Assembly (NCBI GenBank): GCA_947497485.1
Contig: CANMHB010000008.1
Location: 62,001-126,000, forward strand
Source: Flavobacteriales bacterium
GTDB taxonomy: Bacteria > Bacteroidota > Bacteroidia > Flavobacteriales_D > Crocinitomicaceae
DNA length: 64,000 bases
Reading direction: 5' to 3'
The notes beneath the pieces were generated by a model. The model was not told where the DNA came from. It worked only from the letters and a program-made list of their open reading frames with translations, and did no database searches. Positions 13,503-16,231 of this stretch are shown one piece after another; positions within the stretch are counted from its first letter, which is position 1; every line of letters starts with the position of its first letter. The position numbers and the translations under genes are program-made.

Positions 13503-13744
13503 TCATTGCGTTTACAAATATTCTGAAGATATCTATCCTCTCCCTTCGTCTAGAGAAGTGAAAATTTAAAGTTTTTATGCTTTGGCAAAAAATGTTGAAG
13601 TCAATATATTTCCATTAATTTCCTTTTTGGCAAGCCCCAAAAAATCATCCCTTTCAGTCTTTCATGAAATAAGAGAATAGAAAAAATACATTTTATCGAC
13701 AATAATTACAATTTGTGAAAATTTTCGTAACCCGACTCTAATCG

Positions 13745-14560
13745 TTACTTAGACATCCTTTTAGAGTTACTTTCTGTAATGACTTTTTTGCCCGTTTTCT
13801 CTTCAATTTCTTTTCGTGTGTTACCTGCAATTGTTCCTCCTTGTTTTGCGATAATTTTACTTTCATCAAAACCTTTTGGTTTTTTCTCTTTGGAAATTTC
13901 GGTAGTTGTGGCTTCAGCAAGCATATTTAAAACAAGTTCAAGATTTGACATGTGATCCCGAAGATTTTCTTTTTTCAACTGCTTTAGATTCTTGTATTGC
14001 TTTGTGGATAATCCGCTCCAGGCTTTTGTTATTTCATCTGTTAAAATTGCAAATTCCTTTCCCTGTTTGATCCCACGATTTTCCCACTCATCGGTTAATT
14101 CTTTCCGAACCTCAATACTTTTTAATCGTTGATTGATCCACTCCTTGGAGTAGCCTTTTCTCAAATAGGTTGCCATTAAACGTTCGAAACCGATTTCGGG
14201 GTCTTCAATTTCATCCATACGTTCGCGACCAACTTGCGCCAACCAAAGCTTAAATGGTTCTGCTTTCGGCGATGGAATGCTTTGAATTAGTCTAAAAAGT
14301 TGTTCTGTATTTGCAACGTCAGTTTTATAGTATTTACCATCAGATGCTATTAATTTCAGTTGTCCGATTTTTTCGGACAACTCACTTCCCTCCTTTTTTA
14401 GCTTTGTTTTTAAGTCACTCCAATATTTTCTTGGGCGATCTGTTCCCGATAAAGCTTCCATCACATCTACAACAGAAAAATACCAGCATTCTTGTTCCTC
14501 ATCCCAATGCGTGCGAATTTGATTTTGATTAAAAAGCTTTATAGCCGAGTTTTTGTCCAT
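13745..14560 (-). CDS. BRO-N domain protein, DinD-like
   Basis: 271-residue protein with an N-terminal BRO-N domain (about 1-110; motif WYFSVVDVMEALSGTDRPRKYW), the fold found in phage antirepressors and baculovirus BRO proteins. The remainder resembles DNA-damage-inducible protein D, including the end GGTIAGNTRKEIEEKTGKKV. In E. coli dinD is part of the SOS regulon; the role here is unknown. It stands alone, on the opposite strand to both neighbours, between spacers of 242 and 312 bases, which suits an accessory gene. No integrase or phage structural gene is nearby. Confidence 0.8.
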   Translation of the reverse strand: MDKNSAIKLFNQNQIRTHWDEEQECWYFSVVDVMEALSGTDRPRKYWSDLKTKLKKEGSELSEKIGQLKLIASDGKYYKTDVANTEQLFRLIQSIPSPKAEPFKLWLAQVGRERMDEIEDPEIGFERLMATYLRKGYSKEWINQRLKSIEVRKELTDEWENRGIKQGKEFAILTDEITKAWSGLSTKQYKNLKQLKKENLRDHMSNLELVLNMLAEATTTEISKEKKPKGFDESKIIAKQGGTIAGNTRKEIEEKTGKKVITESNSKRMSK

Positions 14561-14872
14561 AACTCTAATATAAGAAAAATTAATGAATAATCCAGCGCTT
14601 TTCCTTTTGTGAAATAATTTTTACATTTGCTAATCCCAACGGGGAAATAATTTTATAAGAAAAAAATAGCGTTTGCTAAACGTCCTGCAAGAGAAAAGTC
14701 GAAATTTCATTGCCGCAGGGAAGTTAAAGTGAAACGCTCATGTTACGGCGTGGGCGTTGCTTTGCTTTGCGGCTCGGGCTTCGACTCCCTCTCTTGCAAG
14801 CTAAAGCAACTGTCCCACGCTTTTTTATTGGTATAAACTCACTGCGGGGCGGGTGAAACTAAAACTTTAAAA
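14561..14872. other. 312-base spacer holding a GC-rich structured element
   Basis: No protein frame is supported here. From about 14668 to 14820 the DNA is much richer in G and C than its surroundings. It contains a near-palindrome (CGTTTGCTAAACG at 14670-14682), a long hairpin running into a T-run (14748-14826), and a second set of complementary arms enclosing the first one's 5' side: TGCAAGAGA (14686-14694) with TCTCTTGCA (14790-14798), and AGTCGAA (14697-14703) with TTCGACT (14780-14786). It could be a non-coding RNA, an attenuator or a dispersed mobile repeat; I cannot identify it. Confidence 0.6.
14748..14826 (+). terminator. Large terminator-like hairpin followed by a T-run
   Basis: Arm GCGTGGG (14748-14754) pairs with CCCACGC (14814-14820), and inside them TTGCTTTGCTT (14757-14767) pairs with AAGCTAAAGCAA (14798-14809) apart from one bulged T. 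TTTTTT follows at 14821. It reads as an intrinsic terminator on the plus strand, yet no protein gene ends here, so it may close a non-coding transcript beginning near 14640. Confidence 0.55.
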
Positions 14873-16069
14873 ATGAAGAAAAGTTTATTTACAGCCTTTG
14901 CAATTTGGCTTGGTTTAACTGCGAGTGTATGGACACAAAATTGTAACTTAATAAATTCAATAACATTGAATACCCCCTCTAATAAATTTATCGGGGGTGT
15001 AACTTATGCGATACCAAATTCAGCAAATGGCGGTTGGGATGGTTATGGTGATTGTGAATTGTCGCTAAATAATTGGATTTATATTGCTTATTCAAAAGAT
15101 CAAGCTAATAATATGAATTTGTATTTTAACGGTAATTTGGTAAAAACGGGCACTTACCAAAATTTTCCTTATTCTTGGAATAGTTTAAGACTAGGGACCG
15201 ATTCTCCTACCTCGGCAAATAATTTTTTTAATGGGAAAATTGATGAATTAAGAATTTCAAATGTGGTAAGATCTGCAACTGAAATCACACAGCACTTTAA
15301 TTCTAATCAACCATTTAATCAAGATCAAAATACGATTGCACTATATAATTTCAATCAACAAAATGGAGGTCTAATTTCAGCTAGTTTTGGACCTAATGGA
15401 ACTTCCTATAATTCAACTTTTGTTTCGGGATTATTTGGGAACTCTATTTCATTTAACGGTGTTAACAGCTATGCTGATTTTCCCCTAAACGTTCCTGAAT
15501 CAAATCTTACAGTAGAATTTTGGATTAATATAACAAACATAATTGGTTCTGATTGGGTGATAAATTATCCTGGAATATATGGCGCTGGTTTTCAGATAAA
15601 TAATTTTTCACCATCATATTCATGGTCTACGGGAGCAACAGGAAATGCAATAACAGTAGATCCTTCTCAAATGCAATATGTCTGGGTAACTGATGGGAAT
15701 TGCACAGACACTGTTTGGTTTGATTCTCAGTCAGCGACAGTTTATGACACACTACTAACAACCGTTACAGACACCTTAATCATCAATACAACATTGAGTT
15801 TACCAGCTCCAAACAACGAAAACACGATATTGATTTATCCAAACCCGGCAAGTGATCACATCACCATCGATAATGGCAACTTCACAGCCATGGCAGGTTA
15901 TACCATCAAAATTGAAAACAATGCCGGCCAACAAGTATTTCAAAGCGCCATTAACCAAGCACAATTCTATGTTGATCTAAGCACGTGGACAGGAAATGGT
16001 TTGTATTTCGTTCATTTGATTGATGCGCAAAATAATACGGTGACGGTGAGGAAGATTGTATTGCAGTAG
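14873..16069 (+). CDS. LamG-type surface protein with type A T9SS sorting tail, internally rearranged
   Basis: 398-residue secreted protein. A signal peptide (about 1-21, ending WTQ) is followed by what looks like the C-terminal half of a laminin-G/concanavalin-like domain (NNWIYIAYSKDQ to DELRISNVVRSATEI, about 63-140). Next comes the N-terminal half of another (IALYNFN to LTVEFWINIT, about 155-225), then an Ig-like fragment with SYSWSTGATGN. It closes with a type IX secretion type A tail, IYPNPASDHITI (about 315 on), ending VRKIVLQ. Two half-domains in reversed order suggest deletion within a tandem LamG protein. Surface adhesion is likely but not shown. Confidence 0.75.
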   Translation: MKKSLFTAFAIWLGLTASVWTQNCNLINSITLNTPSNKFIGGVTYAIPNSANGGWDGYGDCELSLNNWIYIAYSKDQANNMNLYFNGNLVKTGTYQNFPYSWNSLRLGTDSPTSANNFFNGKIDELRISNVVRSATEITQHFNSNQPFNQDQNTIALYNFNQQNGGLISASFGPNGTSYNSTFVSGLFGNSISFNGVNSYADFPLNVPESNLTVEFWINITNIIGSDWVINYPGIYGAGFQINNFSPSYSWSTGATGNAITVDPSQMQYVWVTDGNCTDTVWFDSQSATVYDTLLTTVTDTLIINTTLSLPAPNNENTILIYPNPASDHITIDNGNFTAMAGYTIKIENNAGQQVFQSAINQAQFYVDLSTWTGNGLYFVHLIDAQNNTVTVRKIVLQ

Positions 16070-16105
16070 GAAAATGGTTGAAACCATTATTGATTTTTCG
16101 AAATT

Positions 16106-16141
16106 ACCCATAGGGGCGGATTTAAATCCGCCCCTATGGGT
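16106..16141. repeat. Perfect 36-bp palindrome, GC-rich
   Basis: Two 18-base arms, 16106-16123 and 16124-16141, are exact reverse complements with no spacer; the arm begins ACCCATAGGGGCGG and the centre is TTTAAA. It lies 36 bases after the LamG gene stop and 66 bases before the leuS promoter. It may be a REP-like dispersed palindrome or a bidirectional terminator; there is no clean T-run, which favours a repeat. Confidence 0.7.
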
Positions 16142-16206
16142 TTAAATGTGTTTAATCGATTTTCTCAAAAAATCATCATTTCATCACATAACGAATAATT
16201 TGAGTT

Positions 16207-16214
16207 TATCTTTG
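16207..16214 (+). promoter_or_regulatory. Bacteroidota -7 box for leuS
   Basis: TATCTTTG matches TAnnTTTG exactly and ends 17 bases before the leuS ATG at 16232. The -33 region is AT-rich with no clear TTTG. Confidence 0.55.
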
Positions 16215-16231
16215 CACTCTAAACAAAAACA

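Follow-up and report, generated by a model that had tools for sequence, protein, structure and literature searches.

The 64,000-nucleotide (nt) stretch of DNA analyzed here, referred to as the window, comes from a Flavobacteriales bacterium of the family Crocinitomicaceae (GenBank assembly GCA_947497485.1, contig CANMHB010000008.1, positions 62,001 to 126,000). Between a gene for a Bro-N domain protein and a gene for a LamG domain protein lies a structured element, at 14668-14826 of the window on the + strand, which is one copy of an RNA family. On the present analysis, this element is fairly likely to be transcribed as the 5′ leader of the LamG gene and to represent a family of bistable RNAs of the Bacteroidota that regulate in cis, attenuator or riboswitch-like, and that appear not to have been described. 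From the sequence of its copies we infer both that the element is transcribed and that it switches, and it probably works as a genetic on/off switch.

The element and its parts

The original prediction had drawn two sets of complementary arms by eye, and all of them are present on the + strand. Set A consists of GCGTGGG (14748-14754) with CCCACGC (14814-14820) and of TTGCTTTGCTT (from 14757) with AAGCTAAAGCAA (from 14798); set B consists of TGCAAGAGA (from 14686) with TCTCTTGCA (from 14790) and of AGTCGAA (from 14697) with TTCGACT (from 14780), and the third pair is GCCGCA (from 14712) with TGCGGC (from 14768). The stretch had also been described as richer in G+C than its surroundings, which is borne out in the 50-base bins of 14301-15300, where G+C content is 0.60 in 14751-14800, 0.46 in both adjoining bins, and 0.24-0.44 in the others. 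That it follows no gene holds insofar as the nearest upstream gene, Bro-N, is divergent; the gene downstream of the element is LamG. Folding of the + strand gives -64.3 kcal/mol (z -5.0), a value that 0 of 200 shuffles equaled, and the fold of the - strand is weaker (z -3.05, with 1 of 200 shuffles as good). The prediction was right in what it saw and understated the find; it missed the stems S1 and P2, the tip hairpin, and the hairpin P4.

Two folds can be drawn. In state T, the 5′ half is closed on itself by S1 and P2, and the 3′ half forms the G+C-rich hairpin P3, which a U-run follows as in an intrinsic terminator. State A instead joins the two halves in one long hairpin (helices N7a, K, N7b, mid, and tip), which takes away the 5′ strand of P3. 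The parts of the locus are as follows.

14668 to 14738, + strand: 5′ unit, from the state T fold and swap tests
14668-14674 with 14732-14738, + strand: outer stem S1, AGCGTTT / AAACGCT
14684-14688 with 14715-14719, + strand: inner stem P2, CCTGC / GCAGG
14686-14694 with 14790-14798, + strand: hypervariable helix N7a
14697-14703 with 14780-14786, + strand: central helix K, first arm AGTCGAA
14712-14717 with 14768-14773, + strand: hypervariable helix N7b, first arm GCCGCA
14725 to 14764, + strand: antiterminator-like hairpin of the minimum-free-energy fold, with mid (14725-14730 / 14759-14764) and tip (14733-14743 / 14748-14758)
14747 to 14821, + strand: terminator-like hairpin P3 of the state T fold, outer part 14747-14754 / 14814-14821, inner part 14755-14767 / 14798-14812
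14821 to 14826, + strand: U-run (a T-run in the DNA), directly 3′ of P3
14839 to 14856, + strand: hairpin P4, TCACT-GCGGGGCG-GGTGA, before the ATG of the LamG gene (14873)
14622 to 14629, + strand: promoter-like TACATTTG, matching TAnnTTTG, the Bacteroidota -7 promoter element
14635 to 14643, + strand: small 5′ hairpin CCC-AAC-GGG near the presumed transcript start, recognized by eye only
13745 to 14560: Bro-N gene (PF02498), the nearest upstream gene, divergent from the element
14873 to 16069, + strand: LamG gene, directly downstream of the element, with a LamG domain (PF13385) and a type IX secretion system (T9SS) sorting domain (PF18962) in Pfam

Covariation in both folds

Two covariance models were used, R1, made from 23 copies, and R2, built on 90 copies with the cross-paired helices as its only base pairs. 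Seven antisense echoes among 99 R1 matches, which arise from the palindromic form of the element, were dropped before counting. The alignments A5 and A6 together hold 150 rows, 149 of them distinct, since L215 in A6 has the same sequence as L054 in A5; L063, whose element is identical to that of L049, was omitted from A5, and L073 and L074, being partial or containing N, were not used. In a sequence-only alignment of 90 distinct copies that was given no structure, and from which L134 with its very long tip was omitted, the top pairs after average product correction belonged mainly to N7a (six neighboring pairs), K, N7b, and a small hairpin around the partner arm of K. Of P2 and P3, single pairs stood lower in the top 90, amid a noncanonical background, and S1 had no pair in this list.

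Each arm was then scored with its own partner and with partners from other copies in 5,000 permutations. This was done in a first set of 52 copies and in 57 copies of a second set of 60, all less than 80% alike; one copy of the second set, L215, is identical in sequence to a member of the first. In both states, each helix fits its own partner better, and 0 of 5,000 permutations equaled it. The z scores in the first and second sets were -4.9 and -7.2 for S1, -10.0 and -9.2 for P2, -4.0 and -8.3 for the outer and -10.5 and -11.7 for the inner part of P3, as against -22.2 and -27.6 for N7a, -17.5 and -23.0 for K, -22.2 and -24.4 for N7b, -7.2 and -7.9 for mid, and -5.7 and -7.9 for tip; false-pairing controls gave -1.7, +1.6, and +0.3 in the first set and -1.3, +0.3, and +0.1 in the second. 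The small hairpin on the 3′ side of K scored -4.3 in the 52 copies. The models behind the alignments did not include the pairs of S1, P2, and P3, and alignment fit therefore gives these helices no advantage. An outer helix of R1, pairing its positions 1-10 with the 3′ end, had no covariation support (z -1.7 and -1.3) and was omitted from R2.

Pair counts tell the same story. State T together with the crossing helices N7a, K, and N7b has 89.0% standard cells on A5, with changes on both sides in 39 of 47 pairs (S1, 5/7; P2, 5/5; two parts of P3, 10/16 and 5/5) and a covariation score of 0.476, compared to 0.191 when shuffled and at most 0.105 when slid; pairing is weakest in P2 (77%) and in innermost P3 (72%). 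The cross-paired form has 92.0% standard cells on A6, both-side changes in 36 of 41 pairs, and a score of 0.745, compared to 0.221 shuffled and at most 0.097 slid. Thus, both arm sets covary, and so does the third pair, N7b, which supports the original suggestion of mutual exclusion of the attenuator kind: two incompatible folds are both conserved, the antiterminator-like one with mid and tip and the terminator-like one with S1, P2, and P3.

Helix K stands apart in that 99% of its pairs are Watson–Crick, with 2 G-U in 1,045 cells, despite a freely changing sequence. The flanks of its arms are conserved, GAAA..UUU at one arm and GG..CC at the other, and K may possibly consist of two small hairpins with kissing loops, a geometry that we infer from these features.

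In the five cross-paired helices, read on the sense strand, G-U cells number 735 and A-C cells 71, or 386 and 54 once the tip is set aside, in which fixed U-G pairs count for much; as the models favor G-U somewhat, the ratio cannot be taken as a strict statistic. An excess of this kind points to folding of the sense strand as RNA and would not be expected under selection on a DNA repeat or on the opposite strand. It therefore bears on the idea that the element is a folded single-strand site of recombination or transposition, such as an integron attC site, a REPIN, or something like a miniature inverted-repeat transposable element, as its inverted-repeat halves, its several copies per genome, its place beside accessory genes, and its absence from the same locus in a sister genome might suggest. 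We regard this as extremely unlikely, given the wobble count, the single polarity shared by promoter motif, U-run, and start codon, and the presence of the one Y1 transposase found in the genome on a contig without a reported copy. An integron attC site stands 3′ of its cassette gene and, as a folded single strand, recombines with an integrase; the element has a position tied to the following gene and a wobble bias that favors sense-strand RNA, a comparison in which same-strand upstream genes and integrases were not searched. As to a REPIN/RAYT system, in which a Y1 transposase of the genome mobilizes the repeat, the single Y1_Tnp gene lies on contig C18 and the five reported element copies on other contigs, the REP motif itself not having been tested; by eye, no element was seen in the 3.3-kb locus of the Y1_Tnp gene. 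Nor is the original alternative of a dispersed mobile element supported in itself, since a same-strand open reading frame (ORF) follows in 146 of 150 copies and G-U exceeds A-C; terminal repeats and target duplications were not searched systematically.

Position in the probable leader and proposed switching

The motif TAnnTTTG, which was part of no covariance model, lies 15-100 nt upstream in 119 of 149 copies, at a median of 55 nt, and in 12 of 142 control regions. By eye, other copies also carry complementary variants of the small 5′ hairpin, e.g., CCTAACGAGG and CTCAATTGAG. A U-run (at least 6 T in 8 nt) ends 141 of 150 copies, where 15.7 would be expected from windows further downstream, a count to be read with the caveat that the models include part of the run, and a same-strand ORF of at least 60 amino acids (aa) starts no more than 700 nt downstream in 146 of 150. 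The order of parts is that of an attenuator: a terminator-like stem, a U-run immediately 3′ of it, and a gene on the same strand whose 5′ leader holds both. The distance from the element to the next ATG is 40-59 nt in 60 of 145 copies, whereas on the divergent side 0 of 141 have such a start; this preferred distance favors the earlier suggestion of a leader for the LamG gene. A leader specific to LamG genes, the first guess, was dropped, as copies also precede other genes.

A promoter motif and a terminator-like end in most copies, together with several copies per genome, would also suit a separate small RNA of ~190 nt that acts in trans, has its 3′ end at the U-run, and just happens to stand before genes. 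The preferred distance to the start codon, the presence of P4 after the U-run, and the pairing of the hypervariable arms within the molecule make this quite improbable.

The loop of P4 (14846-14851) is complementary to TGTCCC (14811-14816) in the 3′ strand of P3. In 133 of the 150 copies, the others lacking the anchor motif or enough sequence, a complementary run of at least 6 between the P4 loop and the P3 strand UGUCCC was found in 52. Shuffling the downstream sequence gave 2.7, and exchanging strands among copies gave 21.4; a looser count of 78/133 versus 27.8 shuffled is less telling, since its reversed-strand control is 62. The swap z of this pairing is -8.2 in 104 copies, and compensatory variants of the loop include GGGUU:AACCC, GGAAC:GUUCC, and GAGAC:GUCUC. 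By a looser definition, P4 stands at its expected place in 50 of 64 copies with a start of the 40-59 nt type and in 11 of 82 others, so that two kinds of leader seem to exist. Among ORFs of at least 500 aa that begin at least 150 nt past the element, 17 of 18 start 226-580 nt away, and in the methyltransferase-type copies inspected the start lies 10-25 nt past the element, which leaves no room for P4.

This hairpin speaks for a translational switch, in which the U-run would be a mere linker and P3 and the P4 loop would compete for the UGUCCC strand, thereby opening or closing the start region. P4 and its pairing covary close before the start codon, and the 40-59 nt spacing in 60 of 145 copies fits such a role. 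A U-run directly after P3 in 141 of 150 copies is, however, needless for control of translation, P4 occurs in just 11 of the 82 copies with a start elsewhere, and the methyltransferase-type copies lack room for it; we thus consider a purely translational switch unlikely. Bacteroidota use Shine–Dalgarno sites little, and a leader that may contact the start region is for this reason of general interest.

Folding energies bear on how a bistable, attenuator-like leader would work. In the 131 of 150 copies with an anchor motif and enough sequence, the isolated 3′ unit forms the terminator stem in 130, the isolated 5′ unit forms S1 in 126, and the whole RNA takes the cross-paired form in 123. For the window copy, the cross-paired form has -62.9 kcal/mol and the two-hairpin form -55.7 kcal/mol. 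In folds of growing prefixes, S1 appears once 14740 has been made, then the tip, and then, from about 14790-14800, the long cross-paired form. On the basis of the isolated, whole, and prefix folds, we propose that the RNA enters either state T or state A while it is being transcribed and that read-through is the default. A signal would stabilize either the 5′ unit or the cross-paired form, and RNA polymerase would stop at the U-run or read on; this signal could be, for example, a small ligand, a protein, or the speed at which transcription or translation proceeds. In state A, the freed 3′ strand of P3 could pair with the P4 loop just before the start codon; this pairing would then hold the read-through form and might also set access to the start codon. 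Because state A is the default by free energy, a regulator is more likely to be needed to switch the gene off.

Several observations weigh against this reading. The cross-paired form beats two separate hairpins by a mean of 10.4 kcal/mol (standard deviation 5.2), a comparison in which it cannot be worse by construction and in which the two-hairpin form was computed without loop–loop contacts; with this form so favored, formation of the terminator would depend on help or on kinetics. Textbook terminators lack the long apical part of P3, and a simple terminator scan with loops of 3-8 nt misses P3 and reports the tip hairpin. Nine of the 150 copies miss the U-run threshold. The outer pairs of P3 change mainly on one side in A5, the small 5′-side hairpin of K is weakly supported (z -2.9, 14/5,000 in the 52 copies), and phylogeny is only incompletely removed by the swap and shuffle controls. 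P4 follows the U-run and cannot join a decision on termination, so that a role in translation suggests itself. Before long ORFs such as SusC, most copies have the 226-580 nt leaders and no convincing P4, so the mechanism may differ there. Finally, the downstream genes share no common pathway that would point to a ligand.

With attenuators and terminator-type riboswitches, the element has in common a place in the 5′ leader, exclusive terminator-like and antiterminator-like folds, and the U-run. It differs from them in having no known ligand or leader peptide, many kinds of downstream gene, hypervariable long-range helices, a K helix that is nearly Watson–Crick only, and a hairpin after the terminator that pairs back.

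Distribution, downstream genes, and mobility

The copies form a widespread and apparently undescribed structured RNA family of the Bacteroidota. With blastn, three copies were found in the own genome and four in 2 of 39 other relatives, and another blast query matched 14 of 86 genomes of the same genus, the own included, some matches being partial. Of 392 genomes sampled from the phylum, 36 had full-length R1 matches, and R2 gave full-length matches in 105 of 395 genomes, representing 63 of 196 genera of the window's class, which is taken to be Bacteroidia from the taxon labels of the pattern-scan matches. Copy numbers per genome in these genome-wide searches are lower bounds because 7-8 candidates were scored per genome; deep scoring gave 2-6 copies in 10 of 13 chosen genomes, these 10 having been picked for their hits, and 5 in the own genome. 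A pattern scan of a genome collection (84,980 species by its description) returned 37 stretches, 36 labeled Bacteroidota, among them Flavobacterium xanthum, F. tiangeerense, F. alvei, and F. rhamnosiphilum, and 1 labeled Planktophila. The contig behind the last (L065), assigned to Candidatus Planktophila (Actinomycetota), bears an element of the Bacteroidota type, and its label is probably a binning error. In a metagenome-assembled genome labeled Pedobacter (L062), two copies stand in tandem on one strand (1956-2119 and 2476-2632).

The proposal that this is an unnamed structured RNA is strengthened by the comparison with Rfam 15 (4,227 families, judged by each family's gathering threshold), in which no family matched the element at threshold, as well as by the covariation of both arm sets. 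A scan of the window returned two tRNAs only; the element itself, at E up to 5, gave three weak hits, all below threshold; 20 loci yielded one tRNA only, and 8 loci at E up to 0.5 yielded two hits, both at a single tRNA locus away from the element. No description of the element was found in the openly licensed literature by title and opening of the abstract, and the candidates of PMC8040213 or the 64 structured leaders of PMC9723704 could include it. PMC9723704 also reports unnamed structured 5′ elements without Rfam hits in Flavobacterium psychrophilum, which, as structured leaders of the same phylum, may be the same family. Like the element, the Flavo-1 RNA motif (RF01705) is a computational RNA motif of Bacteroidetes, as listed in Table 1 of PMC2864571, and its hits are described in PMC9723704 as both sense and antisense to transcripts; since no Rfam family matched the element or the scanned loci, the element is not Flavo-1 if release 15 includes RF01705.

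Downstream proteins were tallied for 128 of 146 ORFs, with 17 LamG-type near-duplicates and 1 short ORF omitted and proteins cut at 350 aa; the sample is not random, as it starts from the window's genus and holds several copies per genome. A TonB plug domain occurs in 17 (SusC/RagA in NCBIfam in 17), LamG in 11, a DNA methylase domain in 10, of which 7 match a type III methylation-subunit domain, and a response-regulator domain and sigma-70 region 4 in 5 each. Many other ORFs are, by eye, lipoprotein-like at the start or short. In the window's genus, most full copies precede genes that share the signal-peptide start of the LamG gene, L024, L034, L042, and L044 being exceptions. Many SusC-type loci (L138, L139, L164, and others) have, by eye, a conserved TTTGCGATTCTTC-like stretch upstream and a TCTCGCA-like stretch downstream of the element, which could possibly form an outer helix that enlarges the RNA of this type. 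At two loci, L221 and L394 (contig C14 of the own genome), the element precedes very small ORFs that resemble, by eye, the C-terminal domain of the RNA polymerase alpha subunit.

In the sister genome nearest by leuS identity (G053, locus L245), the genes for a glycosyltransferase, UbiA, and leuS are contiguous, with UbiA directly before leuS, and the block of Bro-N, element, and LamG (window 13503-16230) is absent from the same locus. This contiguity implies that the block was gained in the present lineage or lost in the sister genome. A blastn search of plasmids with the element gave no match. In viral contigs, a loose two-block DNA pattern followed by R2 gave one full-length copy and one fragment among the matches listed (80 loci). 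The full-length copy (L302, 316-487, - strand) lies on the virus-labeled contig IMGVR_UViG_3300009175_001421, 60 nt upstream of an ORF whose beginning resembles that of a type III methyltransferase; the contig also bears, by eye, terminase-like and ArdC-like ORFs. Given the block missing from the sister genome and the copy on a virus-labeled contig, the leader seems to move with accessory genes.

A two-hairpin, cross-pairing 5′ leader of accessory genes, among them the methyltransferase-like one on the virus-labeled contig, also recalls RNAs that modify RNA polymerase in cis for processive antitermination. The put RNA of phage HK022 and the EAR element are structured leader RNAs that act on transcription elongation in cis, and a similar action on accessory operons can be imagined for the element. 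They act on downstream terminators, whereas the element ends in a terminator-like structure of its own and has conserved folds that compete, and we judge this explanation slightly more improbable even than a trans-acting small RNA.

Tentatively, and with less confidence than we place in the leader itself, the family may be a new class of RNA switch, present in about one-third of the sampled genera of Bacteroidia, that senses one global signal, controls unlike accessory functions by means of an intramolecular kissing complex, and travels from genome to genome as a ready-made regulated promoter-leader. If so, the functions controlled would be SusC nutrient and phage receptors, type III restriction-modification, T9SS surface proteins, sigma factors, and response regulators, and the hypervariable arms would have drifted or would have been selected to be unique so that copies do not cross-pair. 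An RNA of ~160-200 nt with strong covariation, 63 of 196 genera, and no Rfam family would rank among the larger undescribed cis-regulatory RNA families of the phylum. It would tie genes of phage–host interaction and nutrient uptake (SusC receptors, DNA methyltransferases, surface proteins) to one control element and make testable which signal these leaders read.

The gene that follows the window copy (14873-16069) belongs to a family of LamG/T9SS genes (L008, L009, L010, L011, and L012) with like signal peptides and C-terminal ends and different middles. In a comparison of five loci, the 5′ and C-terminal ends of the LamG-type genes were alike and the middles did not align, suggesting recombination or rapid divergence of the middles. 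A perfect inverted repeat, CCCATAGGGGCGGATTTAAATCCGCCCCTATGGG, lies 3′ of the LamG gene at 16110-16143, and homology with four of the paralogous loci extends to 16137-16163.
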